From contig CM028333.1 in NCBI GenBank assembly GCA_016647705.1, positions 9,994,616 to 10,058,615 of the forward strand: DNA of 64,000 nt, given 5' to 3'. The notes beneath the pieces were generated by a model. The model ran no database searches, was not told the origin of the DNA, and saw only the letters and a list, made by a program, of their open reading frames with translations. Within the stretch, counting starts at the first letter, position 1. Every line of letters starts with the position of its first letter. The position numbers were made by a program, and so were the translations under genes. The DNA comes from Eucommia ulmoides. Its lineage: Eukaryota; Streptophyta; Magnoliopsida; Garryales; Eucommiaceae. Below are positions 2,261-63,916 of this stretch, one piece after another.

Positions 2261-3282
2261 GCCAGCCCGATGTGAGTTTATTTTCCCTTCTCGATATATT
2301 GTACTAACTTGGCTCTTTTTTGCATTCTCAGCCCAGAAGAAGAACAAGCCCACCCATTAGATCGTTGCACAGAGAGACTGGGTGGTGAAGACGCCCTTCA
2401 ACCACATCAAATCGTTGAGCATGTCGTCCTTGTACGAGATCTACTTTTGGAGCGGCCCTTCTTTCCCCGTGCCATTTTAAAGAAGAATTCGAATAACAGT
2501 AAGTTATTCCACATCAGATCGGTTATGTTTCCGTACTTAGCTTTTTGTAATTCCTATCCTAATCAATTTTTCCTGTCATGCAGTCATGGACATTGAGGCG
2601 ATGCAGGGGTTGGCTATGGAGCAGGTCGAATAGGAGGCAGTTAGGCAGGACTCACAATAAGTTGGCTCACAGCATAGTGAAGAAGCCAGGAGGTGGAACA
2701 CACCTCAGCCTGGTCAACCCCCTAGGTGACCCTTGTAAGGTCCGTGTTAGCGGGCAGGGCCTCGACACCGGTGGGAAAGCCTTCGACCCCAATGGCGTGC
2801 ATACCCATGGAAGAGGAGAGTCCAACCCTTACTAAAAGGAAAGACAAAGGACAAAGAAAGGCAAGCACAATCGAGATGCGATCGAGCCCTAGACGTAGAG
2901 CAGGAGAGAAGGCCAGCCAAGGTAGGCTAGGACATTTATTGCTGATACCGACCTCCAGCTCGACCGTCACATCCTGGATTAGCCCAACTTCCTCTCGAGC
3001 TTCATTCATAAGATCACCGCCTGAATGCTAGAGCCGGATTGTTGCCAAGTCTGACGTGCTCTGCCCAGCAACTTCAGTTTTCAAAACAACATCTTCATCA
3101 ATGCTTTTGCAGTTACCTTTCAAGAGATCAGTCAGTGCAATCATGTCCTCTTCCAATGACTTGATTCTAGCCGACGTATTGGTACAGAATTTTCGAAGGA
3201 GATTCGAAGATTCGCAACGTCAACCTTTAGTTCAATGTTCTGTACAGACAAGTTCACCTTATAGCCCTACTTTGATACCCAT
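2261..3282. other. Unassigned repeat-like sequence, probably the internal region of a truncated LTR element
   Basis: No intact gene is visible. Short frames on both strands (for example + strand 2309-2596 and 2726-3031) are broken and I do not recognise them. At 3268-3282 the - strand reads ATGGGTATCAAAGTAGG-like sequence, resembling the primer-binding site complementary to initiator tRNA-Met, directly downstream of the LTR-like block 3283-4226. This stretch would then be the start of that element's internal region, cut off at 2260 by the LTR fragment. This is inference. Confidence 0.3.
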
Positions 3283-4226
3283 TGTCAAAGGATTAAATTT
3301 TCACCACGAAAGTTGTAACTGAGTGATGGCCTAGTTACACCAATAACTAGCAACCCCGAGAATGTTCATCCACGCAACTGAAGTACACTGACCGTACGTA
3401 AAACACACACGTTTCGGCAAAGTTATACAACGACTATACACTGAAACACAGTACCAAAAACCCACCCCTCAGGTTATAAGGAACCAATTACAATGTATCA
3501 GTCTAAAATCCGCAGCTATACATTCACTAGTCAAAAACAGACCCAAAACCTGACTATTTATAGGAGAAAATAGCAGTTGACAGCCCCAACAACCTAGGTA
3601 GACAACCGACACATGTCTGACATGTGTCCAGGCCATAGGAGTTAGTTTTTCTATCTAAAAACTAACTAAAACCACCACAGAAAACTGTCCAGACAGCACC
3701 CACATATCTTGCACATGTCTGGTAACTACTAGTCCATCAGCTCACCATAAGTTCAACTTCATTCTAGCGTTTTTGCATCATGCCAACATCCTGCCTCGTT
3801 ACCATCACGACCCATAGTCATGCCTACATTTTCTAACACCTCACCATACCACCCATATGGTCAGAACGCGTCTTGCGCCCACGTTTTGTCTCATTATGTC
3901 ATTGTGCCTAACGACTTCCCAACACCGTATGTATTTTTCACACCAAAATGCACCGTTATTCCCAACAGTCTACTATGTTGTGCACATGACACTATTCAAA
4001 ACATAGCATTATGCCTACGTTGTGCCACCTTACCTCGGTACCACACCAAGGTCTTTCTCACTGCCTAACACCTGCTGGTGTTGTGCCACAACACCACTGC
4101 CCACCGATGTACACCAAGTTGGTGCCTTTTATGCTAACGACCCCATTTGTATTACATGCACTGTATCCGGTAGCAAAGTACACTAAGCCAGTGTTGTTTG
4201 GTCCTCTAGTGTTGTTTGGGCTAACA
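3283..4226 (-). mobile_element. Putative LTR of a second element inserted in the Tat-like pol gene
   Basis: The block starts with TGTCAAAGG and ends with GGCTAACA, so it has TG...CA borders, and on its lower-coordinate side it abuts an initiator-Met-like primer-binding site. On the - strand CTATAAATA at about 3555-3565 could be its TATA box. Its upper border coincides with the point where the neighbouring reverse transcriptase reading frame stops matching, right after the conserved DWLA. No partner LTR is in the window, so identity and borders are tentative. Confidence 0.4.
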
Positions 4227-4950
4227 GCTAGCCAGTCCAAGAATTTGACTTCTTCCACGACATCGGACTTGATAAGTTTATCCATTTCTTCTTCGATGAA
4301 CTTGTGCAGGTCTGGGTAGAATTTTCTCCTCTTTTGACGAATAGAAGGGTGGTACACATCGGCATAGATCCGGTGTATAGCCATTCTAGGGTCAACCCCC
4401 GGGAGCTCGTTATGCAACTAAGCAAAAATATCGTAATTCCTCCACAACAGCTCGGCGAGCTCGACACATTGTTCTGGGCTGAGCCTAGCTCCTATTCTTA
4501 TAATTCTTTCTTCGATGGTCAAGTGGATGGGAACTTCAAGGATATCTTCATGGGGCGGAGGAACGGGCTCTTCATCTCAGGGATCATCAATTGGAACTGG
4601 TGGGAAACTTCATCATCTAGTGATAGGAGGAATAGACGGCCTTTAGGGCAGCTATTGTCGGTCACCCTATGATTGCATTATGGGGCGAGGGTTTATCTAG
4701 GATAAGAAACTTTGACCATACGGTAGCCGTTCTGGGCTTAGATCCCACAGTGACGAGCAGGGAAACCCATCCTAGCGAGCTCATGACATCTCCTCTGAAA
4801 CCGACGAGAGGAGCCTTCATGGGCTGCACAACGCTGGAATCCACATTCATCTTGTCAAAGGCCTACTTGAAGATTATGTCAATGGAGCTACCCCCATCGA
4901 CCAAGATCCATCATGTCTTGAAGTGATTGATTAGGGCTGATATAACCTAG
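4227..4950 (-). pseudogene. Tat-like protease and start of reverse transcriptase (pol remnant)
   Basis: On the - strand near 4900-4660 the frame reads ILVDGGSSIDIIF, then PLVGFRGDV, VTVGSKPRTATVW and PSPHNAIIG. This is the pattern of plant Ty3/gypsy aspartic proteases, with DGGSS in place of the usual DNGSS. From 4417 downward LPGVDPRMAIHRI, RQKRRKF, IEEEMDKLI and FLDWLA match the N-terminal part of gypsy RT. Matching stops at about 4227, before the catalytic YxDD region, where the block 3283-4226 begins. In-frame stops (for example between the protease and the IISALINHF stretch) mean it is not translatable as one protein. Confidence 0.75.
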
Positions 4951-5199
4951 GCATCGTCGTGAGGGGGTACGGCCTCGCTAAAAGAGACGATGTTGTGTGT
5001 GGCGACATCAACCATGCTCACCTTGTACATGTTTTGCTCAGTCTTTCTATTTATCTTGTGCTCATACTTTTTCTGGGAGGAAGACGTTTTACCCCCGAAA
5101 CTTAGTCTGCTATGGATAACGTTGATTTCATTATCCACCCTCTGGTCATCGTCATTACAGATGTTGTTGTCCCAAGGTGGAGGTCGGCTATTATTTCTC

Positions 5200-6337: not shown

Positions 6338-7969
6338 TGTACGTTGAGGATTTCGATCCTCGCGTATTGACTACTAGAAAGTGTACGAGGTCAAAGATTT
6401 AGTATAGTATGATCATGGAAGATCGGGTTATCGTATCCACAGGGATTGGTGTCGTTACTATCGAGTACCACTTTCGGCATGACCTAACTTTATCTAGGCT
6501 AAAAATAAATGTGTTTAATTAATTAAACTAATACTAATATAACGTAAATTAACTATACTAATATACAAATATGTTTTAGGGGAAATAATTGCCTAGGGAT
6601 TAACTTGTTTACAAATACGTGTTCGGTCTCGATTTACTCACGTTTACGGTGTTCGACTTATTTGATAATCTCGGTATCTAAAACTCCTCTGCCACCTATC
6701 CCGTGTGTAAGACGGGGGATATAACGCAACTTCGTGTCAACAAAAAAATTCCCCTCAACGTCTTAATGACCCTAGGTCACGTGAGTCTCGCCTCAATGTC
6801 ATTGATTGTACACAATCCAACTCTCGACCGGGTCATTGGATCGTCGCGTCGTGTTTACTCTATCGACAATCTCGGTTCTAAAACTCCATCGCCACCTCTC
6901 CCGAGTGTAAGACGGGAGAATACATGACTTCGAGTCAACAAAGAAGTGCCCCTCAATATCTTAACGATCCTAGGTCACGTGAGTCTTGCCCCAACGTCAT
7001 CAATTGTCCACAATCCTAACCCCGACCGGGTTATTGGATCGTGGCGTTTGTTTACCTTAATCCGAATTCGGGGTTTGTCAAACCCCGTATTCTCTATTTA
7101 TCTATCTAAGTATGATAAACAAACAATACGATAAACACAATCAAACTACGAAGAACAAACATAAACGCAACACCGAAATAATCCAAACACATATTTATAA
7201 ATTTATTATTAATCCCTATACAATCCACATTTAGCCTATGGCCATAGCCTTACTTACATGAAAGAACAAGGTAAACATGCTCACAATATCCTAAGTTAAA
7301 GAAATAAGGGAAGAAATCGAAGAACTTAGCCTCGTCCGAAGATTTGTCGCTAAGAACCATTTAACGATTGCTCCGTCGTCTTCCTTCACATCGGGATGTG
7401 AGCTCTTCCTCTAAAACTCCTAATTCCAACCCTAAGTATAGCCCAAGGGGCTCTAGTGGCCAGAGTGTGCAAGAGGAGAGGATAGGAGAGGAGATGGTAT
7501 TTATAAGCAAAATATCTCAAAAATATCTAAAAAATATCTTAGGATGTGCAGAGGTCACCATCGCAGTGGTGGGATTCACCGTCGCAACGGTGAGTTGGTC
7601 GGTTAGTTGATCGCCTAGGCGGTGAAGAATGTTGTGGACTTGGTTGACATCCTGTATCTCCAGCGCCGCAGTGGTGGATGTTCAGGAAGGTAAGTCAGTC
7701 TCTGCATTTTCACCACTGCGACGGAGGTCTGGATGCCGCGGCGGTAGGCTTCTTTCACAATATTGCCTCCGTGCTCATTTTTCCACCGTTCTTCGACCGT
7801 TTTTTATTCGATCTCATCGTTTTCGCTCCAGTTTCCTATCTTGTTGCCCCCATACACCTGATTTATACAAAAAGTATAAAAACTAATTAAAACATAATAA
7901 AATACTATATAAACGCTTGAAAACTAACTTAATACGATTTGGAAATATGTAGGTAGATCACACCTATCA
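6338..7969 (-). repeat. 3' LTR of the LARD-like element
   Basis: It is the lower-coordinate direct repeat of the element and is the 3' LTR because the element reads on the - strand. It starts TGTACGTTGAGG and ends CACCTATCA. It carries three CGAGTGTAAGACGGG-like runs around 6700-6920 and a GC-rich island with repeated CCGC/GTGG words near 7555-7745. A near-copy lies at 9936-11539 with small indels. Confidence 0.9.
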
Positions 7970-9935: not shown

Positions 9936-11539
9936 TGTACGGCAAGGATTTCGATCCTTGCATATTGACTAATCACAAGTTTATGAGGTCAAAGTTTTAG
10001 TATAGTGTGATCGTGAAAGATCGGATTATCATATCCACAGGGATTGGTGTCGTTACTATCGAGTACTTCGTTTGTCATGACCTAACTTTATCTAGGCTAA
10101 AAATAAATGTGTTTAATTAATTAAACTAATACTAATATAACCTAAATTAACTATACTAATATACTAATATGTTTTAGAGGAAATAATTGCCTAGAGATTA
10201 ACTTGTTTACAAATACGTGTTCGATCTCGATTTACTCACGTTTACGGTGTTCGACCTATTTGACAATCTTGATATCTAAAACTCATCTGCCACCTCTCCC
10301 GAGTGTAAGACGGAGGATATAATGCAACTTCGTGTCAACGAATAAGTCCCCCTCAACGTCTTAATGACCCTAGGTCGCATTAATCTCGCCCCCAACGTCA
10401 TTGATTTCACACAATCCAACTCCCGACCCAGTTATTAGATCGTCGCGTCGTGTTTAACCTATCGACAATCTCGATTCTAGAACTCCACTGCCACATTTCC
10501 TAAGTGTAAGACAGGGGAATACATGACTTAGAGTCAACGAAGAAGTCCTCTTCAACGTCTTAACAACCCTAGGTCACGTGAGTCTTGCCCCAACGTCATC
10601 GATTGTCCACAATCCTAACCCTGATCGGGTTATTGGATCGTGGCGTTTGTTTACCCTAATCCGAATCTGGGGTTTGTCAAACCCCATAATCTCCATTTAT
10701 TTATCTAAGCATGATAAACAAACAATACGATAAACACAATCAAACTACGAAGAACAAACATAAACGCAACACCGAAATCATTCAAACACATATTTATAAA
10801 TTTATTATTAATCCTTATACAATCCACATTTAGCCTATGGTCATAGTCGTATTTACATGAAAAAACGAGTTAAACATACTCACAATATCCTAAGTTAAAG
10901 AAATAAGGAAAGAAATCGAAGAACTTAGTCTCGTCCAAAGATTTGTCGCTAAAAACCGTTCAACGATTGCTCCGCCATCTTCCTCCACATCGGGATGTGA
11001 GCTCTCCCTCTAAAACTCCTAATTCCAACCCTAAGTATAGCCCAAGGGACTCTAGTGGCCGGAGTGTGCAAGAGGAGAGAAGATGAGAGGGTATTTATAA
11101 GCAAAGTATCTCAAAAATTTCTAAAACATATCTCAGGCTGTACAGAGGTCACCGCCGCAGTGGTGAGTAGGTTGGTTAGTTGATCGCCTAGGTGGTGAAA
11201 ACAGTGGTGGACTTGGTTGACATCCTGCATCTCCAGCTCCGTGGCGGTGGATGTTCATCAAGTTAAGTCAGTCTCTGTATTTTCACCGCCGCGACGGAGG
11301 TCTGGACGCCGCGATGGTAGGCTTCTTTCACAATATTGCGTCCGTGCTAATTTTTCCACCGTTCTTCGACCATTTTTTATTCGATCTCATGGTTTTCGCT
11401 CCAATTTTCTATCTTCTTGTCCCACACATCTGATTTATAGAAAAGTATAAAAAATAATTAAAACATAATAAAATACTATATAAACGTTCAAAAACTAACT
11501 AATTTAGTTTGAATATATGTAGGTAGATTATACTTATCA
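9936..11539 (-). repeat. 5' LTR of the LARD-like element
   Basis: This is the higher-coordinate direct repeat, bordered by the primer-binding site at 9912-9929 and by the target-site duplication at 11540-11544. It ends in TACTTATCA, where the other copies have CACCTATCA. It is similar to 6338-7969 over its whole length. Confidence 0.9.
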
Positions 11540-15396: not shown

Positions 15397-17226
15397 ATGG
15401 GGAACAGTTTGGGAGGTAAAAAGAGCGCGAAAATCATGAAGATTAACGGCGAGACGATCAAGCAAAAGGTTCCTGTTCTTGCCGGCGAGGTGCTCAATCG
15501 CTATCCGCGTCACGTTTTGATAGAATCGGAAACGTTCAAGCACTTTGGGATTCGAGCCCAGCCGTTGGATCCAATGCAGGAGCTGAAGCCCCGGAGGCTG
15601 TACTTCCTACTGGATCTTCCGATTTCTCAACAGGAGAGAGGCCCTAGGAGAGTTCGGTCGGGGATTCACATGACCGCGAAAGACCGGCTGGAGAGCCTGA
15701 TGCTGGCCCGGCGATCTGTTTCGGACCTCACGCACTCGATCGCGAAATCGCCGGCGAGCATTCCGCACGAGGACTCATCGGAGAGAGACGGATTGAGGAT
15801 GAAGGTGAGGCTTCCGAAGGCGGCGGTGGAGAAATTGATGGTGGAAAGCAAAAACGAGGCGGAGGCAGCCGCGAAGATTTTGGATCTATGCGTACGGAGC
15901 CATGCGGATGGTGCGCCCAACGAGGTCCCTGCCGATCGTGGTAGCGTCAAAGGAGGTGCCAAGACACGTGAGGTACGATCTCTTTTCTCTTTTTTCCGAT
16001 TTTCATGGCATGTTCTTTGGATTTGTTTATTTTCTTTTACATTTTCTTCCCTACAAAACTTTAATCAACCAATTTGAACACCAAATTTTACCAATTGCAT
16101 GTTACAATTGTATAAAAGAGTTTGGAATTTGAGGGATGAGATGATCAGCACTGTTGAGTTTGTAAGAATTCTGTAAATTCACACACTAAAAGAGATTTGT
16201 TAAGCTCAACTTCCATTTGGGATCTTAAAAAAAATAAGGAACAAAATATTAGGGTAGCCATAAACAGTTATTGATTCCCTTGTGATTCATTTATGAAATC
16301 AAAGTTGTTAATCAGCTCCACCTCACACTGTACCAACTTTAAACTCTTATTCCATCTCTAATACCACATATTAATTCATGGTACCTAAACTAGTACTTTC
16401 AGTTGGCACATTAATACCTCAACCATGAATTTTGTCAACTAACCCTCAGAAAACTGTACAGCCTAATCATTAACTTCATTTTTTTATTTTATTTTTCAGT
16501 TTCATGAATTTTTAAACATTTCTCATTGACTTCTTAGGGAAAATTATATATTTGGTCCTTATACTATGGAATGGGATGGTGTCCATGTCCATCCTGAAGT
16601 TTGCCAAATTGTACATTTTGTCCTTCAAGTTTCACATTTATTTTAATTCCGCAAAATAAAAAATATTAACAATTTTGAATGGTAAATAGGTTGTTCTTAA
16701 CACATGACTTTCTAATGATGATGTTTTCATCATTTTATCATTCCACTAAGTTTAAGATATTTTTTTTCGACTTTTTCTTAACAACAACGATTCATATGGA
16801 GAATGAGAAAGAAGTTTGATTTATTGTTTACAGAAAATGTTTAAAGTTTAGTGGAGTAATAAAATAATAAAAATATCTCTAACTACAACTTATTTTTTGG
16901 CAAAAATCATTAACTTCGTCTTCAATTTGGTAGGATTGAAACAAATATAAAACTTGAGAGATCAAATGTGCAAGTTAACAAATCTGAGGGTTCACATAAA
17001 CACTCACCCCATACTTTAAAGCCCAAAAATTTAATAGTCCCGAATTCAAAAATTGTCAAGGTTTAAAAATACATGTATTTGTTATCTTCACGTAGTTAGG
17101 AATTCCTACTTGAGTTCATTTTTTATATTGGAAATACTACTGATATTTGTGTGTATTCACTTGCAGAGGCGAGTTGGTTTCAAGACACCCAGTGAAGCAG
17201 AGATACAATTAGTTACGCACTATTAA
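15397..17226 (+). CDS. DUF4228 / PADRE-domain protein, two exons (15397-15972, 17167-17226)
   Basis: Exon 1 begins at ATG 15397 (MGNSLGGKKSAKIMKINGET) and ends at GAG|GTACGA (15972). Exon 2 follows GCAG at 17166 and adds RRVGFKTPSEAEIQLVTHY before TAA at 17224-17226. The joined protein is 211 residues. The N-terminal glycine at position 2 and MGNxLGGKK suit N-myristoylation. Residues 14-72 carry the KINGET, VLxxYPxHVLIESE and LKPRRLYFLLDLP blocks of the family. PRRVRSG, AKDRLESLMLARRSVSDL and VRLPKAAVEKLM follow, and the short second exon with EIQL is also typical. The family is plant-specific and includes pathogen- and stress-responsive members; its biochemical activity is not known. Reading through the intron would give a false 226-residue product. 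Confidence 0.9.
15973..17166 (+). other. Intron of the PADRE gene, containing a fold-back insert
   Basis: The intron has GT at 15973 and AG at 17165-17166. At 1194 bp it is longer than the coding sequence. Its middle (about 16545-17035) forms an imperfect inverted repeat: TGGTCCTTATACTATGG...GTACATTTTGTCCTTCAAG on the left pairs with the reverse complement of CTTGAGAGATCAAATGTGCA...CCCCATACTTTAAAG on the right. The remainder shows nothing I recognise. Confidence 0.75.
16545..17035. mobile_element. Fold-back MITE-like element in the PADRE gene intron
   Basis: Arms of about 100 bp are inverted and imperfect, and an inner pair (TCATTCCACTAAGTTTAAG near 16738 and its reverse-complement-like AAGTTTAGTGGAGTAATAAA near 16845) extends the palindrome. 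No target-site duplication is clear, so superfamily and exact borders are open. Confidence 0.5.
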
Positions 17227-21390: not shown

Positions 21391-22674
21391 TCATTGCCTA
21401 ATCAAAATTTCATAACTTGTCTTCCAATTCGTATACATCATACCCAATGTTTCCACCCATTGAATTCTTAGAATGACATCAAATTTTCCCAACTCCAGGG
21501 GCGAAAATTCTTCCACAATATCGATTCCTTGAAGTTGCAAATGAACGCTCTTACACATACCTTCTCCTTTAACGGCTTCTCTCGTACCAATAGTCACTCC
21601 GTAGGCTTCCATAGCCGTAATTGGTAACTTCAGTTTCTCAACCACAGCCTTAGATATAAAATTATGTGTGGCTCCATTATCCACTAGGGTCATTACTTGT
21701 TGATCACCAATCGCCCCTTCCACCTTCAGTCTTTGGTGACGTAAGACCAGCTATAGAATTGAGCGAGACTTTAGCAATTGGAGGCAATTCAGTAGTTTTT
21801 AATACTGGCCCCTCGTGTTCCATCTGCTCCTCTATGTCCTCCAATTCGTCATCCGTTTCCTAGGTAACCAAAACACTCAATTCCTTGTTTTTGTATTTAT
21901 GCCCAGGCGACCATTTATCATCACACCAATAACACAATCCTCTTTCTCGTTTCTTTTGTATTTCAAAATCCGTCAATCTTCGTACTTCACCATACAGCTT
22001 AGCTCCATAAATGTTTCCTGCTGTGAATGACAAGAATCCCCATGGTAGAGCAGTGGGCCAACCCAGGTTGTTGGGCTTGAAAAACTGGTTGGGTCGATTA
22101 CCCGCTGATGGGTCAACAAAGCTCCTTGAAGAGCTGGCTTGAAAGACTAGGCCAACACCAGTTTTTCTTCTATCTTCTAGGCCAAGTCCATGGCCTGACC
22201 CAAATTAATGGGTTAAAAAATCCTTACTTCAGCCTGAATCTCAGGCTTCAATCCATTGATGAAATTTCCCAAGGCCATATCGTTTGAGACATCCTCCAAT
22301 GGTGCCAACAATTCCAAGAACCTCTGGTGATACTTGTGAACGTCTCCAGTCTGCTTCAAGGCCAACCACTGCTCATGGAATGACCCCATAAGAGTTGAAC
22401 GAAATTGTTTCAGCAGTAGAATCTTCAACTCCTCCCACCACCCGATGGATCGGAACTTGGTTTTCCACTGGTACCATAGTAAATTGTCACCTTCGAAGCC
22501 GATGACTACCGCTTCAATCTTCTCGTCGTTCGTGAACCGGTGGAGAGCAAAATAGCGTTCAACCTTCAAGATCCAACCATTTTTGAAATCGAAAATCAGA
22601 GGGCGAATTGAGAAGATTGGTTGTCGAATCGGGAAGATGGGTAGTCGAATTGGGAAAATTAGGGTTACCTTCAT
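21391..22674 (-). pseudogene. Chromovirus gag, zinc knuckle and protease
   Basis: Gag (22674-22213) contains GWILKVERYFALHRF, GDNLLWYQWKTKF, LLLKQFRSTLMGSFHEQWLAL and MALGNFINGLKPEIQ, the usual chromovirus gag blocks. Near 21945-21890 the - strand reads GLCYWCDDKWSPGHKYKN, a CCHC knuckle whose last Cys is Tyr. The protease (21723-21391) has VMTLVDNGATHNFIS. Frame breaks lie between gag and knuckle and between knuckle and protease. Confidence 0.8.
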
Positions 22675-24353: not shown

Positions 24354-27300
24354 TTAAGAAGACCATTGATCGGGAACTCTGAGAAAATAGGTTGTCATCT
24401 TCTTCCTAAACCGTTTCTTGTACTGTTTCGGAGATATTATCGTTGGAGAAGCATTTTTCGGACCACCAAGAATGCCCGAAGCCTTGACCCAAGTCTCCAA
24501 ATGCTTGTCCCATGTGTATTGCCTCATGAAATCGATTATCCCAATAACAAGCTCCTTCCTCTCCTCATCCACCCCAACCAGTAACGAATAGTCCATCACA
24601 TCAACCGACTGAAACCAACAAAAACAAAAACAAAAACAAAAACAAAATGATCATTGATTTCTGTTGCTGTTCTGAGATTTCAGGGAACGGAAAAAAAAAC
24701 TATATACAGAATTTACACAGCTTTTTTACCGCTAAGAAGGATGTGTCGTTCCAAACAGCCCTCTCTAAACTTCTCTTTGCTTTGGTCCCTAGAAATATGG
24801 GTTCTGTTCGTAATGTTTCGATGAGATTCATGTCGAGCAACACTTTGTTCGTCCCTGTCGTATCGGAGTTGTAACGGGATCGAACTGAGCCTTTTAGATC
24901 ATATACCCTAGAGATATTTCTTTTGAAAAATAGGTTCTCCATCACCATTAAATCCATTTTTGTTTCTTTCCCACCTTTCAAATTTTTCACGGTCACCTAA
25001 AAAAATCAAAACGAATAAATAGGAATTGCGCAAACCCTTAAAAAGGGAAAATTATTATACAAGTGAAATAATTCATATATAATTTTTTATCCCCGTTTTT
25101 TAGTCATTCAGTTAATATCAACAACATGCTGAATTTGTATCAAATATAACAGTTAAAATCAACCAAGGACAAAAATAAATTACTCTTAATCAGGATAAAG
25201 AAAACAAAGATAAGAACTATATAAGAACCCATTTAAGAAATGAGGTCAAACCTGATAAATTCCAAGAACTTTGGCGAGGCAAGTCGGGCTTCTTGAACCG
25301 AGAGAATCGGTCAAATACTTGAAGTATTCGGGCGCGAATTCTTCAAAAGATTCCAATTCAGTTTTGGTGACTTGTTTTACAATGAACCTTTCGTCCAACG
25401 TTTTTGCAAAGTAAACATTACTCTTTCCACCTTGTGCACTCCACCTCTTACACCGGCTCAAAGACCGTAAAAAGTCCAATTTGTTAGGACAACATTTCTT
25501 CCTAAGCCTATCAAATTGCTTCGCCAAATAACACGTCACCGAAAACTTCACTTTTCCGACACCATTCAAAGATTCGTCCTCGAAATTTATCCTTAAATGA
25601 GGCGAAGAAGAACTCTTGGGATCTTCAGATCCGTAGCTCCCGTAGTGAATATAATCCAAATCTAGAGACCCGAAAGACTGCCATGTTGAAAATTTTGGGC
25701 TTCCTTCAGGCCCAGGCCCGGGCACAGCCCCGTTTGATCTATCGGAAACCCAATTCTCGTACTCCTTAGTTCCGAGAGCATATGAAATAATGCTGGTCGG
25801 TTCGTTATCGTAAACCGTGATCACGAAATTATTTTGGCCGTTTTGCGGAAGCATCAACCGTCCTCCTTCCGGCAAAAGAGACAAGGACGATCTGAACAAA
25901 TGAGGGGTGTTCATCAGAAAATTCAATTTCTGGGCTTCTCGAGGTAATATTTGAGAGTAAGTCCGGTGAATGTTTGAAACCGGGTCCCGGACCATGTTCT
26001 TGTATTCGCCCAAAGCATGAAATGATCGAATGGTTGACAAATACAATGAAGACGGCGGCAGTCCTTTTCGAAGTTCTTGAACTCTCACGGCGGAATCGAA
26101 CGAATAACCTCTCGCTGGGGTAGTAACTCTCCGAATCGACGGATTCAGCATAGTGGGGTCGGGCCCATCTGCACGAGGCAACTGGGCTTTCGAAGTGGGC
26201 TGATCTGTTCCAGCCCACGCAGAATCTATTTTCTCAGACAAAGCCGATGCTGCTGACGGAGCCCGTTCCAAAGATGTCTGAACCGCGATTTCACCGTCCG
26301 ATTGAATTTCCCCTTCTTCCGAAGCTTTGGGCTTGGGTTGTAATAGATTCCGCTGTTCCTGCATTTGTTCTGATAAATCGGGTGTGTTTTCTTCGGGGGC
26401 ATTTGCGACATTTCCATCCTTGTGAAGCTGATGGCTTTTCGAATCTTTTGTTTCAAGGAGAGAGTTCAACGAATAAAGCCGGCGATCCCAAGCATGCAAA
26501 CTGATTAGGAGGTTATGTCTCAATCGATTGAGTTCGAGGATGTCTATCGCTGCCTGACCCGAGATCGATTCTTCTTCATCGGACGGTTGGAGCAGAAGCT
26601 GCTCAAACAAAATCAGAAACAAAAAAGCTATAATGTTTCTGTTCCCAAAAAACTTGGAACGAAAACAAAACCTTTAAATACAAATCTGGGAACAAGAACA
26701 CGCTCTGTTCTGTTCCGGATTTTTAGAACAGAACAGTAGGCTGTAGATTGTTACTACTTACAATGCAATCATTCTTTTCTTTCATAAGCAGATCTTTCAA
26801 TTCAAATATGTGATTATATGGCTCATCCAAATCGGAGCGTTTCTCCCCCAAAGCTCCACTCTTTTGCTCAATGCTGTCTATTGCACCCGATATCTCTGCG
26901 TATAAGCCTTCCATCTTGCTCAAAAGCTGAAGGGTGAGAGAGTGAATATCACATATTTCTAGCAAAATTCAAAGAAATTTGAGAAAGTTTCAGTTTTAGA
27001 TTCAAAATAGCACCTCAGCAGCTTCATTTCTCAACCGTTCCTGCTGAAAATGGCCGTTGAACTCGAGTATCGATGGCGGCAAATGGACGGAGAGAATATC
27101 AATCGGAGAATACCGGAAGAAGGCAACCATATTCCCAAATCTATCAAATATGTAATAACCGCAAATTCCAATCATCATCAAATTAAGCACACAAATAAGT
27201 AAAAATCAAATTCAGATTTTTCTATACACCCAACGGAGTCTTACCCGTAGAAACGGAGGCAGTCCCTTTGTAGGGAATGGCCGCAGCTCGCAATTCGGTT

Positions 27301-40979: not shown

Positions 40980-41802
40980 TGTAAGGTGGTTTTGGCTCTC
41001 TCTCAACCTCATAGCTAATGTGGTGAAGTTTTTCCTCACACTTGTAACTTGACCACCAACTCCTTTCACATTTTATGTGGGATAAACTCAACAATCTTCC
41101 CTTCACACATCGGGTCTTTGGTCGACTAACACTCAATTAGTCTCTCCATTTGTGACTATTGGGTTAGAGTTGTTGTAACTTGGGCGCTGATACTAGTGTA
41201 GAATGGTTTTGAGTCTTTTTCAACCATAAAAACTAGCTCAAGAGATAAGACTTTCTAGCACACTTATAACTTGATCACCAAACTCTTCCACATCCGATGT
41301 GAGATGATAAACTCAATAATTTATCCCTCACATGTTGGGACTTTTGTCGACTAACTCTCGACCGTTCTCTCATTTTGTGGCTATTGGGTTAGCATTGTTG
41401 TGATTTGGGCTTCTAATAGCAGTGTATGGTGGTCTTGGATCTCTCTCAATTCCAAAAAAATCAATAGGTCAGATTTTCCTTCACACTTATAACTTAAACA
41501 TCAACCGCTTCCACATCCGATGTGGGACAAACCCAACAATCTCCTCCTCACATATTGAGCTTTTGGTCAGCTAACCCTCTACTAATTTATCTCTTTGTGG
41601 CTATTTAGCTAAAATTATTGTAACCTAAGTTTTGATAATAGTTTAGGGGTGATCTTTGGTTAGAGTTGTTGTAACATTGACTCTAGAGGGTGATTTTAGG
41701 TCTCTCTCAACTCTAAAATCTAGCTCATGAGTTGAGTTTTTTCTTCACACTTATAATTTGACCACTAACTTTTTCCACGTCTGATATAGGATAAACTCAA
41801 CA
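40980..41802 (-). mobile_element. TRIM retrotransposon in a multi-LTR tandem array (four LTRs, three internal regions)
   Basis: The - strand LTR begins TGTTGAGTTTATCCCACAT and ends with a CCACCTTACA-like terminus. Copies lie at 40980-41093, 41197-41318, 41423-41538 and about 41682-41802. Each internal region (~105-145 bp) begins on the - strand with TAGTATCAGCGCC-like sequence, the initiator tRNA-Met primer site, and ends with a purine-rich tract (TGAGGxGGAGAT). A perfect ATGTC duplication flanks the whole array, so it integrated once as a unit or grew after insertion. A partial extra LTR start near 41640 shows a further small duplication in the third internal region. It is non-coding. Confidence 0.85.
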
Positions 41803-42537
41803 ATGTCTGGATTCCCTAAAAAATCAAAACAAAAATAAAAATTTGGGAACAATTAGCATAAAGGAGTACTTAATGCGAATTAATTTTGACCGACACGACG
41901 ATGCCAAACTTTGATGGAAGTTACTTTCATTAATTGTTCTTTTTAGGCCTATAATATTCCAAAGTACCTAACTTACAACCAGTGTCACACAAACAACGGG
42001 GGGGGCGGGTTCTTATTCAAGTCTTTTAGGTGCACCCCACTAACATTAAAAAGCAATAAATCATTTCTGCACATTTTCAAGTAGTCACCAATTGCATACA
42101 TAGGATAAGGGTAGATGAAACCGCCCCTACTCATAATTTTCTTCATGTGCATCATCATTCATGACTCACATCCATGTGACAATATTGTTATTTTTTTGTA
42201 CTTTAAGGAATCTACACTGTGCAATGGTAATATCAATCCCATTCCCACGCACACAATATTAATCCCACGCACATATATTATATATAATTAATTACTTAAT
42301 TAAAGTAGAAGTAGAGGTTGGAATGCACATCTAAATGTGTGACAAATCAACAAAGTACTTGTTTATTCTTATTAGGAATTTCTTTTGAAAAAAAAATGAG
42401 AGTCTAGTATAATTTTTATTTTTAGTTTAAAAAAAAAAGGAGGTTGGACGTATCCTTCAACATGCACATTATAAAACAGATTAAAAGTTCTATTTATGAA
42501 AATCAATGTTTGTTTTGTTCAATTTGCTCTTCATATA
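41803..42537. other. Intergenic spacer up to the Helitron
   Basis: It starts with the ATGTC duplication (41803-41807). The rest is AT-rich with no recognised gene; a G run lies at 41998-42006. Confidence 0.5.
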
Positions 42538-45530
42538 TCTATATAATAAAATAGGATGGCTTTTTGGCTGATTAGGACAAACTTATGACTAGGACAAATA
42601 AAATATGACTAGGACAAAAAAAAATATTGACGAGGACAAACAAATGCTGACTAGGACAAATATAAAAAAAAATCAATTTTGGTAAAAGGTTGACTCAATT
42701 TTCCTTAATTAATTTAATTACATAATTGAACAATTATACAATTCCTTAATTAGATATAACAATTAGTGAGAATATAAAAAGCACATTAATTAGTGAGAAT
42801 TGATTAATTAATATAAAAAAAGAATGGTTTATTTAATTAAAAAAAAAAAAAACATGTATTTTTTTATATATTCCATAATTCTTTAAATATCTATATAATA
42901 AATCAGAACGGGTATATTCACGGCTGTCGGATGAGAGACAAAACTCTTGACATTTTAAGGCCATATGATCTTTTCATTTTTATTTTATTTTTTAAATTAG
43001 GGCCATAAAAGAAAACTGGGTTTGTTGAAATGAAAATAATTGTATATCGTTAATTGATTTTTGGCTGAGTAAGACAAACTTATGACTAGGACAAACAAAA
43101 TATGACTAGGACAAAAAAAATACTGACGAGGACAAACAAATGCTGATAAAAAAAAAAAAAAAAAAAATTCAATTTTGGTAAAAGGTTGACTCAATTTTCC
43201 TTAATTAATTTAATTACATAATTGAACAATTATACAATTCCTTAATTAAATATAACAATTAGTGAGAATATAAAAAGCATATTAATTAGTGAGAATTGAT
43301 TAATTAATATAAAAAAAGAATGGTTTATTTAGTTAAAAAAAAAAAAGAAACATGTATTTTTTTATATATTCCATAATTCTTTAAATATCTATATAATAAA
43401 TCAGAACGGGTATATTCAGGGCTGTCGGATGAGAGACAAAACTCTTGACATTTTAAGGCCATATGATCTTTTCATTTTTTATTTTTTTTTAAATTAGGGC
43501 CATAAAAGAAAACTGGGTTTGTTGAAATGAAAATAATTGTATATCGTTAATTGATTTTTGGCTGAGTAAGATAAACTTATGACTAGGACAAACAAAATAT
43601 GACTAGGACAAAAAAAATACTGACGAGGACAAACAAATGCTGATAAAAAAAAAAAAAAAAAAATTCAATTTTGGTAAAAGGTTGACTCAATTTTCCTTAA
43701 TTAATTTAATTACATAATTGAACAATTATACAATTCCTTAATTAGATATAACAATTAGTGAGAATATAAAAAGCACATTAATTAGTGAGAATTGATTAAT
43801 TAATATAAAAAAAGAATGATTTATTTAATTAAAAAAAAAAAAAACATGTATTTTTTTATATATTCCATAATTCTTTAAATATCTATATAATAAATCAGAA
43901 CGGGTATATTTACGGCTGTCGGATGAGAGACAAAACTCTTGACATTTTAAGGCCATATGATCTTTTCATTTTTATTTTATTTTTTAAATTAGGGCCATAA
44001 AAGAAAACTGGGTTTGTTGAAATGAAAATAATTGTATATCGTTAATTGATTTTTGGCTGAGTAAGACAAACTTATGACTAGGACAAACAAAATATGACTA
44101 GGACAAAAAAAATACTGACGAGGACAAACAAATGCTGATAAAAAAAAAAAAAAAAAAAAAAATTCAATTTTGGTAAAAGGTTGACTCAATTTTCCTTAAT
44201 TAATTTAATTACATAATTGAACAATTATACAATTCCTTAATTAGATATAACAATTAGTGAGAATATAAAAAGCATATTAATTAGTGAGAATTGATTAATT
44301 AATATAAAAAAAGAATGGTTTATTTAGTTAAAAAAAAAAAAAAAAACATGTATTTTTTTATATATTCCATAATTCTTTAAATATCTATATAATAAATCAG
44401 AACGAGTATATTCAGGGCTGTCGGATGAGAGACAAAACTCTTGACATTTTAAGGCCATATGATCTTTTCATTTTTTATTTTTTTTTAAATTAGGGCCATA
44501 AAAGAAAACTGGGTTTGTTGAAATGAAAATAATTGTATATCGTTAATTGATTTTTGGCTGAGTAAGACAAACTTATGACTAGGACAAACAAAATATGACT
44601 AGGACAAAAAAAATACTGACGAGGACAAACAAATGCTGATAAAAAAAAAAAAAAAAAAAAATCAATTTTGGTAAAAGGTTGACTCAATTTTCCTTAATTA
44701 ATTTAATTACATAATTGAACAATTATACAATTCCTTAATTAGATATAACAATTAGTGAGAATATAAAAGCACATTAATTAGTGAGAATTGATTAATTAAT
44801 ATAAAAAAAGAATGGTTTATTTAGTTAAAAAAAAAAAGAAACATGTATTTTTTTATATATTCCATAATTCTTTAAATATCTATATAATAAATCAGAACGG
44901 GTATATTCACGGCTGTCGGATGAGAGACAAAACTCTTGACATTTTAAGGCCATATGATCTTTTCATTTTTATTTTATTTTTTAAATTAGGGCCATAAAAG
45001 AAAACTGGGTTTGTTGAAATGAAAATAATTGTATATCGTTAATTGATTTTTGGCTGAGTAAGACAAACTTATGACTAGGACAAACAAAATATGACTAGGA
45101 CAAAAAAAAATACTGACGAGGACAAACAAATACTGATAAAAAAAAAAAAAAAATTCAATTTTGGTAAAAGGTTGACTCAATTTTCCTTAATTAATTTAAT
45201 TACATAATTGAACAATTATACAATTCCTTAATTAGATATAACAATTAGTGAGAATATAAAAAGCACATTAATTAGTGAGAATTAATTAATTAATATAAAA
45301 AAGAAATGGTTTATTTAGTTACAAAAAAAGAAACATGTATTTTTTTATATATTCCTTAATTCTTTAAATATCTATATAATAAATCAAAACGGGTATATTC
45401 ACGACCGTCGGATGAGAGACAAAATTATTGACATTTTAAGGCTGTATGATCTTTTCATTTTTTTTTTAAATTAGGGCCATAAAAGGAAACTGGGTTTGTT
45501 GAAATGAAAATAATTGTATATCATTAATTG
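42538..45530 (+). repeat. Tandem array, unit about 495 bp, each unit starting with a Helitron-like 5' terminus
   Basis: TCTATATAATAA occurs at 42538, 42890, 43388, 43882, 44384, 44879 and 45371, spaced 352, 498, 494, 502, 495 and 492 bp. Each unit carries GGCTGTCGGATGAGAGACAA, a GACTAGGACAAA minisatellite of three or four copies, an A-tract of varying length and CAACAATTAGTGAGAATATA-like sequence. The first unit lacks about 145 bp after its terminus. The last unit (from 45371) is the most diverged and leads into the unique 3' part. Confidence 0.95.
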
Positions 45531-46045
45531 ATAGGATTTGTTACCTATAACTAATCATCTTAATTCCTAATCGTGTATCACTTTTATGGAAACAAATGGC
45601 TAATTAATTCTTAATCCTTAATTGCCTCTCAATTTTATGGAAACAACGACGCTTAATTCCTGTAATCCTCTCATTGTCTTTTTCTCCCTCTAATTGTAAA
45701 AACATAACACCGAGATTTCCAACTTTGAGAGTCCAATTGAGTAATAGTTGCATTTGTGAGGGATCAAAAGAGTCATTAGCCTAAATAGATAACCTGAATA
45801 AAAAAGAGAATTTATAAAAAACTCTATATAGTATATAAATAGTATGAATTAGTAAAGAATGTATAATCTTCTTATTTTACATCGATACATTTTTTAATTT
45901 TAATTATTGGTTATTAGTGATGTTCAACTGTTAGTTATTATTGATATTCAAATTAAATAGGTGAATGATATTAATATCGGTTGTTATTTATTGTTAATGT
46001 TTAAATGAAATAGTTCAATTCTTTATTTTATTTTTGTTGTTTTAC

Positions 46046-46077
46046 ACCCGTGCCTTCAGGCACGGGTTATACGCTAG
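46046..46077 (+). terminator. Helitron 3' hairpin and CTAG terminus
   Basis: The nine-base stem ACCCGTGCC pairs perfectly with GGCACGGGT around the loop TTCA. It ends seven bases before CTAG. In Helitrons this hairpin acts as the rolling-circle replication stop signal. Confidence 0.85.
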
Positions 46078-52010: not shown

Positions 52011-52268
52011 AGAGACAGAATTTGATGAAACCTGCAATTGTGTTTGACTATTTACACTTTGTTTGCTGTTTATTTTGTGAGAAATCAATGGGTTTTACAA
52101 AAGCAATTTTTTTTTTCAATTTTAATTTAAATTTGTTCTGAGCTGAATTTTATTCTGAATATGTGAGTTATATGTATGTGGAATTTTAGGGTTCATTGGT
52201 TTGCGTTTGATTTGATTGGTTTGAATGATGAGTTTGATATATATACATGTGAAATTTATGAGAATAAT

Positions 52269-53041
52269 TGATGTTACATTCAACATCTACAGTGTTGAAT
52301 ATAACATCATATGGTTTTTAACTTTGAATAAAAACATGATAACAATTAATGTTACATTCAACATCCATAGTATTGAATGTAACATCCATGCATAACACGA
52401 TCCATAAAAATGTAAGAGCAATTAATGTTACATTTAACTTGAATCCACAAGTGTTGAATGTAACATCATATGAATTTTACTTTACATACATAAAATAAGA
52501 GAACAATTGATGTTACATTCAACATCCACAGGTGTTGAATGTAACATCCACGCATAATACAATCCATAAAAACATGAAAACAATTGATATTACATTCAAC
52601 ATCCACGCATAATAAGATCTATAAAAATATGAGAACAATTGATGTTACATTCAACATCAATAGGTGTTGAATGTAACATTGTAAAAAAAAATAAAAAATT
52701 GATGTTACATTCACATGATGGTATTTTGGCCAGAAAAAGATAACATCATAAAAAAAAAAAAAAAAAAAAAAAAAACAATTGATGTTACATTCAACACTCA
52801 CAAGTGTTGAATTTACATTTAACATCCACATGAAGAGTATTTTGGTCAGAAAAAGATAATATCGTTAAAAAAAAATAAAAAAAAAATAAAAAATCGATGT
52901 TACATTCAACACTCACATGTGTTGAATTTATATTTAACATCCACATGAAGGGTATTTTGGTCAGAAAAAGATAACATCATTTAAAAAAAAAAAAACAATT
53001 GATGTTACATTCAACATTCACAGGTGTTGAATGTTACATTC
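52269..53041. repeat. Array of palindromic repeats (GATGTTACATTCAACA / TGTTGAATGTAACATC)
   Basis: Hairpin-forming units lie at about 52270-52308, 52349-52387, 52424-52470, 52509-52548, 52640-52679, 52781-52820, 52895-52935 and 53001-53041, with isolated left arms near 52584 and 52701. Each has 14-16-bp inverted arms around an 8-9-base centre such as TCCACAGG. Spacing is about 75-85 bp in the first half and about 105-115 bp in the second, where ATGAAGGGTATTTTGGTCAG is added to the unit. Confidence 0.9.
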
Positions 53042-53309
53042 AACATCCATATGAAGGGTATTTTGGTCAGAAAATGACAAAAAGAGTTGTTAGTGCAAAA
53101 AAAAAAAAAATAGTGATGAGATTAATCGGTAATTTCTTTTATATTCAAGAAGTAAATGATGCATGCCTCTTTATTAATACCGAGGTTGACTTTTAGAGGT
53201 AAGCTTGATCACACCGCATTTTGTGCGATCTATTACCACTAAATTTAAATTTGTTAATTGTTCGATTAGATTAACATATTATAAATTAAATTATTTTATT
53301 TATTTTTGT

Positions 53310-57405: not shown

Positions 57406-58594
57406 GTGGCAGATTTGAAGAGAATTGACCTTTCAGTGTATATGCATAAAATCCACCTCGCGGATGATGCAAAACCGACGAAAGAGTTTATGAGAAAATT
57501 GAATCCCAACATGAGAGAGGTGGTAAATAAAGAAGTCCTGAAGCTATTGGATGTGGGTATTATTTACCCTATCTCTGATAGCAAATTTGTGAGTCCCATT
57601 CAAGTAGTTCCAAAGAAGTAGGGAATCACAGTGGTGAAAGATTTTGGGGAAAACTTAGTCCCCACTAGAGAAACTACTAGGTGACAGTTTGTATTGATTA
57701 TCGAAAGCTCAACACCATGACAAGGAATTATCACTTTTCGCTGCCATACATCGATCAGACTATTGAAAGCTAGCAAGTTTTCCTTACTATTGTTTCCTCG
57801 ATGGATACTCAGGATATAACCAAGTCCCGGTATTTCCAGAAGATTAAGAAAATACCACATTCAAATCTCTATTTGACACCTTTGAATACAGAAAGATGCC
57901 ACTTGGATTATGTAATGCGTCGGTGACTTTCCAGAGATGCATGACTGCAATTTTCTCTGACATGATCGATAACTTCCTAGAAGTTTTTATGGATAACTTC
58001 TCGATTTTTGGGACATCATTTGAAGAATGTCTTGACAACCTTAAGAAGGTTCTAGCGAGGTGCGAGAAAACAAATTTGGTGTTGAGTTGGAAAAATAGTC
58101 ACTTTATGGTTCAACAGGGTATTGTATTAGGGCATGTCATTTCAGATCAGGGAATTGAGGTAGATCGAGCTAAGGTTGACGTCATTACAAATTTGTCTCC
58201 ACCCACAACGGTATAGAAAATTTGATATTTTTTGGGTTATGCGGACTTCTACCGATGCTTCATCAAGGAGTTCAGCAAGATTTCACGTCCCCTATGCAAT
58301 CTGCTTCATCTAGATGTGTCTTTCATTTTTGACAAGTTATGTCGAGAGGCATTTGAGACACTTAAGGCAAAATTAATATTTGTTCCCATCATTCAGGCCG
58401 CAGACCACTCTCAACCCTTCGAGATTATATGTAATGAATTCGACTATGCTGTCGGTGCCAATTTGGGACAAAGAGTGGACAAGGTACCTCATGTGGTATA
58501 TTATGCAAGTAAAACACTTGTGGATGCACAGGTGAATTACACTACCATCGAGAAAGAGCTGTTGACTGTGATTATTGCGTTGGATAAATTTTGA
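57406..58594 (+). pseudogene. Athila-like reverse transcriptase and RNase H
   Basis: RLNPNMREVVNKEVLKLL-type sequence, IIYPISDSKFVSPIQVVPKK (57406-57621), then after frame breaks MPLGLCNASVTFQRCM, EVFMDNFSIFG and GIVLGHVISDQGIEVDRAK (57896-58216), then DFYRCFIKEFSKISRPLCNL, YAVGANLGQRVDK and VVYYASKTL with YTTIEKELL (58232-58594). The catalytic FMDDFS motif reads FMDNFS, so one metal-binding Asp is lost. Stops occur at 57619, 58214 and 58592. Confidence 0.85.
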
Positions 58595-61328: not shown

Positions 61329-62502
61329 CGGCATGTTTGGTTGGACGGAAGGGAATGAGGGTGGAATGGAATGGAAGAAGTAATGGAATGAGAGAAGGAA
61401 TGGAATTGAATTGTGAATGGAATCACTATTCCATTCTCTTGTTTGGTTGGTATGGAATGAAAGAAAGAATGGAATAGTGAAATATAGTAAAATTTCCATT
61501 TTGCCCTTATAAAATTATTATTTCATTCTCTTCTTGGTTGGTTATAATAAAATTTTATTATATTTCATTATTCTATTTCTTTCCTCATTTTATTATATTT
61601 CACTATTCAACTCAATTTTAAGTTTTTGTTCTCTAATTTCTATTTTTGTTTTCAATTTTCAATTTCTATTCTTTAATTTCTGTTTTTGTTCTCAATTTTC
61701 AGTTTCCTTTTTCAATTTTTCGTTCTCTAATTTTTTATTTTTTGTTCTCAATTTTTAGTTTATGTTCTCAATTTTTTGTTTTTGTTCTCAATTTTCTGTT
61801 TTTATTCTCTATTTTCGGTTTCCGTTCTCAATTTTATATTATCTAATTTTATATTTTTGTTCTCAATTTTCTGTTTTTATTCTCAATTTTCCGTTTCTAT
61901 TATCTAATTTTATGTTTTTGTTTTCAATTTTCAGTTTTCATTCTCAATTTTCCGTTATCTAATTTTATATTTTTGTTCTCAATTTTCAATTTATGTTCTC
62001 AATTTTCTGTTTTTGTTCTCAATTTTTTGTTCTCTAATTTTATGTTTTTGTTCTCAATTTTTAGTTTATGTTCTCAATTTTCTGTTCTCTAATTTTTTAT
62101 TTTTGTTCTCAATTTTCGGTTTATGTTCTCAATTTTCTGTTTCTATTATCAATTTTCAGTTTCTGTTCTCAATTTTTCTAGTTCTATTCTCAATTTTTTG
62201 TTCTCAATTTCTATTTCTATTCCCAATTTTCTGTTCTCTAATTTCAATTTATGTTCTCTAATTTCTGTTTTTGTACTCAATTTTTAAGGGCTTAATTACA
62301 ATGGCTATCATGTAATTTAAGATATTGATTCCATTGGGTTGGAATCCCATTCCACTCCATCTCAAATGGAATCCTATTCCATCCAATTTCATTCCAATGG
62401 AATCACAAAAGTGATTCCATTGGAGAACCAAACAACGGAATAGGAATCGAGGGCGGAATGCAATTCCATTCCGCCCTCGATTCCATCCAACCAAACATGC
62501 CG
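61329..62502. mobile_element. PIF/Harbinger-type MITE, 1.17 kb, TSD TAA
   Basis: Terminal inverted repeats CGGCATGTTTGGTTGGACGG (left) and, reversed from the right, CGGCATGTTTGGTTGGATGG, are flanked by TAA at 61326-61328 and 62503-62505. A 3-bp TAA/TTA duplication and CATGTTTGGTTGG-type ends fit PIF/Harbinger. The sub-terminal parts carry several TGGAATGGAAT words in inverted arrangement. The centre is filled by a minisatellite (61600-62290). It encodes no transposase. Confidence 0.8.
61600..62290. repeat. Pyrimidine-rich minisatellite, unit about 18-20 bp
   Basis: The + strand repeats variants of TTTTTGTTCTCAATTTTCTG some 35 times with point changes and TCTAATTTTA interruptions. Long frames across it arise only from this low complexity. 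Confidence 0.9.
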
Positions 62503-63575: not shown

Positions 63576-63916
63576 TGTTGAGTTTATCCCACATCGGATG
63601 TAGAAGAGGCTGATAATCTGATTATAAGTATAAGGGAAAACCTTACCTTATGAGCTAGCTTTTGGGGCTGATAGAGGCCTAAGACAACTCCTACATTAGT
63701 ATCAGAGCTCAGGTTACAATAATTTTAGTACAATAGTTACAAAGGGAGAGACTGGTCTAGGATTAGCCGACTAAAGGCCAACGTGTGAGGGGGAGATTAT
63801 TGAGTTTATTTTACATTGGATGTGGAAGATGTTGGTGGTCAGGTTATAAGTGTGAGGGAAAACCTCACCTCATAAGTTAATTTTTGAGATTGAGAGAGGC
63901 CCAAGACCACCCTACG
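63576..63916 (+). mobile_element. TRIM retrotransposon, single two-LTR copy (same family as 40980-41802)
   Basis: LTRs at 63576-63695 (TGTTGAGTTTATCCCACAT...CTCCTACA) and 63798-63916 flank an internal region of 102 bp. That region starts TTAGTATCAGAGCTCAGG (initiator tRNA-Met primer site) and ends with the polypurine tract GTGAGGGGGAGAT. Flanks AAATG (63571-63575) and ATATG (63917-63921) match at four of five bases. The second LTR has TATTGAG in place of TGTTGAG, and CTACG in place of CTACA. Confidence 0.85.

Follow-up and report, generated by a model that had tools for sequence, protein, structure and literature searches.

Helitrons with more than one 5' end are already in print from plants, maize and Fusarium, and the kind is thus known. 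Tandem Helitron arrays of 27 plant genomes were treated by Xiong, Dooner and Du (2016, Plant J), and in the accounts of that work given by PMC12628747 and PMC6591975 many of these arrays have multiple 5' ends and a single 3' end, which is ascribed to rolling-circle copying of a terminator-less circle. The FoHelis of Fusarium also combine several 5' termini with one 3' terminus, and the available sections of the report propose that a nested element moved from the leftmost 5' end to the first 3' end (PMC5148889). In maize, multiple 5' termini are given for 17.6% of helA elements and nesting has been proposed for them, and the available text describes no tandem array with reciprocal exchange products (PMC3288121). 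Head-to-tail maize Helitrons joined by CTAG|TC have also been described, in the excerpt available (PMC2267711); this junction form is found in one relative of the present element but not in its array.

The element considered here lies in a window of 64,000 nucleotides, by which is meant the whole stretch of DNA analysed. Like the plant arrays as summarised in PMC12628747 and PMC6591975, it has several to many truncated 5' units before one 3' end. However, those arrays are summarised as mostly centromeric, whereas a FAB1-like gene is found in the same 64-kb window as this one, and they are explained by rolling-circle copying, whereas the units here start inside the outer end and the inner ones are recombinant chimeras. 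The duplicated 5' stretches of FoHelis are given in the available sections as typically <200 bp, whereas the present unit is ~496 bp and two copies of it are usual in the family (PMC5148889). Reciprocal chimeric units for multi-5'-end Helitron arrays were not found in the literature searched, which was mostly open-access. For an array of this kind the history is unusually clear. Multi-5'-end arrays have so far been read as rolling-circle footprints, and this family presents an ordered alternative, with a usual two-unit composite, a chimeric expansion common to three insertions, a contraction of the reciprocal type and a single outer end observed in use. It is a natural test case for telling recombination from replication in array growth.

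Layout of the element in the window

The terminal motif TCTATATAATAA starts at seven sites in the window (42538, 42890, 43388, 43882, 44384, 44879 and 45371), with site-to-site distances of 352, 498, 494, 502, 495 and 492 bp, and A stands directly before the TC at 7/7. In 1000 runs of a first-order Markov model of the surrounding 4.5 kb the motif occurred 0.003 times per run on average and at most once, so that seven sites are not explained by chance. The first-pass annotation had placed a 5' terminus at these same seven positions and had described one Helitron with a single hairpin-CTAG 3' end followed by T; both the positions and the single element ending at 46077 were confirmed. Its further statement, that the terminus is repeated every ~495 bp, holds for an array of ~496-bp units but not for the first terminus, which lies outside that array. 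The tandem array proper (42561-45532, 6.0 units of ~496 bp by Tandem Repeats Finder and self-BLAST) begins 23 bp in from the outer end, and its right limit falls 162 bp into the last B5' block; the tandem 5' units are followed by one 3' end. The element is laid out as follows.

42538..42560 (+): A5', outer 5' terminus, A|TCTATATAATAAAATAGGATGGC, the end seen in use throughout the family
42561..42889 (+): X1, Xa-type, with five GACTAGGACAAA repeats (motif search, at most 2 mismatches)
42890..43057 (+): B1, Ba-type inner terminus block, beginning A|TC
43058..43387 (+): X2, chimera with Xb left part and Xa right part
43388..43554 (+): B2, Ba-type
43555..43881 (+): X3, chimera with Xb left part and Xa right part
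43882..44049 (+): B3, Ba-type
44050..44383 (+): X4, chimera with Xb left part and Xa right part
44384..44550 (+): B4, Ba-type
44551..44878 (+): X5, chimera with Xb left part and Xa right part
44879..45046 (+): B5, Ba-type
45047..45370 (+): X6, Xb-type
45371..45532 (+): B6, Bb-type, running straight into the tail
45533..46077 (+): tail (Brest), 545 bp, bearing the 3' end; Bb and tail make up the 707-bp block of other loci
46046..46067 (+): 3' terminal hairpin, 6 nt before CTAG
46074..46077 (+): CTAG 3' terminus, then T

Cut at sequence changes, X1 to X6 measure 329, 330, 327, 334, 328 and 324 bp, and the B5' segments B1 to B6 measure 168, 167, 168, 167, 168 and 162 bp. Terminus 1 (42538-42560) has 13 bases in common with the other termini, and past them 5/10 of the next bases match, which is not above chance (P = 0.19). 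What had been taken for a first unit with a ~145-bp deletion is instead the regular outer 5' end of the family, differing after the 13 shared bases. The inner units, which had been called nearly identical, are nearly but not fully so, with 2-6 substitutions among X2-X5 and 0-5 among B1-B5.

At the 3' end a hairpin with 10-bp arms is followed by TATACG, CTAG and T. This is the top hairpin+CTRR site on either strand of the window (score 27; 40 one-strand Markov windows reached 23 at most), and its last 40 nt, as single-stranded DNA, fold at -11 kcal/mol (z = -4.6). With 5'-TC at 42538, 3'-CTAG at 46074-46077 and no ORF of at least 120 aa inside it in the window's ORF list, the element is a non-autonomous composite Helitron. 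Rfam returned nothing at gathering score. Pattern scans of viral contigs for B5', X, the 3' end and A5', and of a genome contigs collection for the 3' end, gave no match, as is expected for plant DNA. A literature search with the letters of the terminus and of the 20-bp repeat brought up nothing related, apart from a single stray match to a fish microsatellite.

Relatives in the genome and the 5' end seen in use

The genome of the window itself (947 Mb, 391 contigs) was searched with the 707-bp block at 45371-46077, which gave 88 matches in 40 loci, 40 of the 1887 first-look candidates being scored. Among the candidates scored, the block is dispersed as 39 near-full matches including that of the window (L009), and the remaining locus, L048, has it split by an insertion. 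All 40 loci, namely the window copy and 39 relatives, were extracted as stretches of 6.0-7.9 kb or 1.7-1.9 kb, on each of which X, B5' and the tail were mapped. Because L048 is cut at the edge of its stretch, it was left out of the unit counts. The 39 countable copies have one B5' (L014), two (35 copies), three (L010), five (L011) or six (L009), with L022, in which an insertion parts the first X from B5', counted among the 35. In the two-unit loci the extra B5' lies ~460-530 bp upstream of the 707-bp block. As read from these aligned loci, the usual form of the family is A5' followed by Xa-Ba-Xb-Bb and the tail, with two inner units.

The insertion behind the interrupted X-B5' pair of L022 (oriented 3015-5016) is a related 2.0-kb Helitron, situated between the X end and the inner B5' and forming a CTAG|TC head-to-tail junction. 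In L012, L017 and L030 a partial duplication is seen within X, where X ending at 268 is joined to X from 56; its occurrence at three sites suggests that this variant has probably also been transposed. L031, L035, L036 and L040 carry an additional X before A5'-X-B5', joined to it precisely at the A5' terminus (oriented 238, 206, 218 and 209, respectively), and this duplication differs in kind from that of the window.

The right end is CTAG in 37 of the 40 loci and CTAA in two, L047 being without this end, and T adjoins the 3' end in all except L047 (39/40). The left junction with flanking DNA is visible in 31/40 loci, and the outermost end there is A5' in 31/31, preceded by A in every one, so that the flank bases are those expected of insertion between A and T without target-site duplication; in L038, L039, L043 and L044 (4 of the 31) A5' reads TA instead of TC. 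Across the genome A5' has 425 matches at no more than 2 mismatches, against 2 for a reversed control, and is therefore the end of a much larger Helitron group. In L031, L035, L036 and L040 the leftmost A5' seen has an X end before it, since these loci carry a further X there, within which the fetched stretch stops; for L036 the genome-wide search finds another A5' match further out. The fetched stretch holds no A5' in five loci, of which L017, L028 and L033 have lost the left part or have it interrupted and L030 and L048 are cut by the stretch, an A5' match starting 6 bases outside L030.

In the 40 loci 85 B5' termini were found (86 by BLAST mapping), of which 84 follow an X end, as scored on the last 5 bases of X, and the exceptional one, in L022, comes after the CTAG of another Helitron. 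Accordingly, no B5' is seen joined to unrelated flanking DNA in these fetched loci. Only the outermost front end, A5', is seen in use among the loci read, and it is presumably the nick site. The proposal of seven possible 5' ends thus finds no support in these loci, since A5' is outermost in all the visible junctions and no inner terminus is seen to adjoin unrelated DNA. The first-pass annotation had suggested tabulating the 5' breakpoints of genome copies with the same 3' hairpin; none of the 40 loci is seen to begin at an inner TC, which is close to the outcome that it had itself named as refuting it. This is also a warning for tools that count 5' termini, as the inner ones are not to be called element starts.

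Unit types, chimeras and relationships of the long arrays

Thirty loci have two full X and two B5', that is, the 39 minus L009, L010, L011, L014, L012, L017, L022, L030 and L033, the last five being excluded from the type set for a partial or separated first X. The a and b types were assigned by majority over 16 diagnostic columns in X and 10 in B5', all of them at least 70% in class, and these columns were derived from the same 30 loci that they classify. By this majority the order Xa-Ba-Xb-Bb is found in 30/30 two-unit loci. The first X of L044 is mixed (8 a, 6 b and 2 neither), and several a/b columns lie in variable poly-A or poly-T tracts, e.g. in B5' of L015, L025, L026 and L043. In the window X1 is Xa, X6 is Xb, B1-B5 are Ba and B6 is Bb, and X2-X5 have an Xb left part and an Xa right part.

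The same mixed unit recurs in the other long copies: all eight inner X segments of L009 (4), L010 (1) and L011 (3) are Xb/Xa chimeras with Ba next. When compared with the end units of each locus itself, the last b columns are at 93-144 in L009, 175 in L010 and 200 in L011, and a follows from 274 on. The chimeras are imperfect, in that X2, X4 and X5 of L009 are b at column 309 and X2 and X5 also at 335, and a few single left columns follow a in L009, L010 and L011. The one-unit copy L014 is the reciprocal, an Xa/Xb chimera ending in Bb, which against its sister L016 follows Xa at 9/10 informative columns up to 160 and Xb at 6/6 from 254. A misaligned exchange between Xb and Xa gives exactly two kinds of product, one longer and one shorter, and the Xb/Xa-Ba inner units together with the Xa/Xb-Bb unit of L014 are the signature of homologous unequal exchange. 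This had been among the options offered before, and it fits the reciprocal chimeras. The long copies and L014 belong to different sublineages, and they therefore represent two events of the same kind and not two halves of one.

Three other readings of these units were given up or weakened. The divergence of X1 and B6 (Fisher P = 0.006 and 1.4e-5) was considered as an edge effect of unequal crossing-over within the array, which the genome copies reject; X1 and B6 differ because they are the old Xa and Bb types, present in two-unit relatives. L014 was dropped as an ancestral one-unit form, as both its left and its right half are of L016 type and its place in the tree is next to L016. Alternating variants in the window array were considered as proof of dimer steps; the period-2 pattern is reached in 8/120 orders for five units and in 164/720 for six, and under this weak permutation test the alternation fits a two-unit step only weakly.

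In a tree built from the final X, the final B5' and the tail (39 loci, 1027 columns), L009, L010, L011 and the two-unit L044 stand apart from the remaining 35 loci with a support of 100 in the consensus tree and 99 when re-rooted. Inside this group L009 pairs with L011 (99) and L010 with L044 (93), and L014 and L016 are paired (80) elsewhere within the family. The flanks of L009, L010 and L011 are three different ones, and three long copies at three sites in one clade suggest that the expanded array has probably also been transposed. Since the two-unit L044 is paired with L010 inside the expanded group, either L044 contracted or expansion happened more than once. Among the long copies, inner units differ by a mean of 5.67 substitutions within loci (9 pairs) vs 6.53 between loci (19 pairs), a difference reached by 1785 of 10000 label permutations, and they are not clearly more alike within loci than between them. 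Recent growth inside the element, which the near-identity of the inner units had been taken to suggest, is therefore unsupported as a purely local process, for the chimeric inner unit is common to three loci. On the simplest reading the founding chimera would be older than the insertions, and the array would have been transposed with its unit number changing afterwards or in transit.

Proposed history and its alternatives

The array very probably arose by misaligned homologous exchange in a two-unit composite and was carried to new sites by transposition. Its starting point would be an A5' with the subterminal X, followed by another 5' terminus block related to it (B5') and a hairpin-CTAG tail; in other words, a second Helitron end (B5' and tail) would lie within an A-type Helitron, 352 bp from its start, the inner TC standing after A as an insertion would leave it. 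X and B5' would then have been duplicated once, giving A5'-Xa-Ba-Xb-Bb-tail as the mobile form, which would have reached dozens of sites, bounded by A5' on the left and by the one CTAG on the right. Xb and Xa would later have been joined in one sublineage by a misaligned exchange, with the switch in X before alignment column 274, which created the Xb/Xa-Ba unit; further exchange would have led to arrays of 3, 5 and 6 units, and an expanded array would have been moved elsewhere by transposition. L014 would have lost one unit through the converse exchange, from Xa to Xb. Within this history the unit types, the chimeras, the outer end used in the loci read and the different insertion sites can be read off the aligned letters themselves. 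That B5' came from a second Helitron is only presumed, because no stand-alone B element occurs among the 40 loci. The expansion presumably preceded the three insertions, and the exchange may have been a chromosomal crossover or a switch of template in the course of copying, as both would fit the chimeras.

Growth during rolling-circle copying, in which a terminator-less circle is recopied or the polymerase jumps from Xb to Xa before insertion, is a possible though rather unlikely source of the array. This is the explanation given in the available part of PMC12628747 for plant arrays that combine many 5' ends with one 3' end, the lack of a clear likeness of inner units within loci is expected if arrays form before or during transposition, and a template jump would yield an identical chimera, although this needs nothing beyond a homologous jump. 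The array, however, is not bounded by Helitron termini: 23 bp separate its start from the outer end, and it runs 162 bp into the last B5' before stopping. Moreover, a deletion product like L014 is a prediction of plain unequal exchange. Serial nesting, with every inner terminus a separate Helitron inserted in the 5' end of the previous one, has a precedent in L022, where the related Helitron of ~2.0 kb sits exactly between A and the TC of an inner B5'. The earlier idea of Helitrons inserting into Helitron ends is to that extent borne out in the family, but such insertion did not make the array: no window unit has its own hairpin-CTAG, the CTAG in the GACTAGGACAAA repeats of X is without a hairpin, the internal break points are common to the units and the inner X are chimeric. 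Of the explanations weighed here this one is the hardest to believe.

Current use of all seven termini as alternative starts for a single 3' end would be in keeping with the presence of A|TCTATATAATAA at each of them, but a B-only copy would match the 707-bp query in full, and the 40 fetched loci show no junction of B5' with an unrelated flank, which makes such use highly improbable. Near-identical 496-bp units are a classic risk in assembly, and the unit number might reflect a collapse or expansion error; yet the window lies inside a 47.5-Mb contig, each unit has distinct variants and the same chimeric unit recurs in the 3- and 5-unit arrays of two more loci, so that an artefact is very unlikely, if marginally easier to accept than multiple start sites. 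Misaligned exchange followed by transposition is hence retained as the favoured history. A more speculative extension, in itself improbable, is that the inner 5' termini are not inert but are targets, during copying, of the transposase or of recombination directed by the 13-bp terminus they share, so that the unit number would change at each transposition and record the copying history. The additional X before A5'-X-B5' in L031, L035, L036 and L040, with its junction exactly at the terminus, is a hint in this direction.

Several other features were noted in the window. A FAB1-like phosphatidylinositol-3-phosphate 5-kinase gene lies at 25246-26622 (-) and probably reaches on to 31727, on the assumption that the ORFs there are further exons, and a PADRE-domain (DUF4228) gene, At1g66480-like, is found at 15397-16077 (+). 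Among named proteins, the nearest ones come from various dicots. Fragments of retrotransposon gag and reverse-transcriptase RNase H are present at 22213-22674 (-) and 58232-58594 (+). A direct repeat of ~1.6 kb with 88% identity occupies 6338-7969 and 9936-11539, with weaker relatives at 936-2262. Two diverged minisatellite-like arrays extend over 52257-53118 and 61611-62286, and a repeat in several diverged copies occurs at 40980-41807 and, on the opposite strand, at 63576-63915, its copies being partly side by side at 41 kb.
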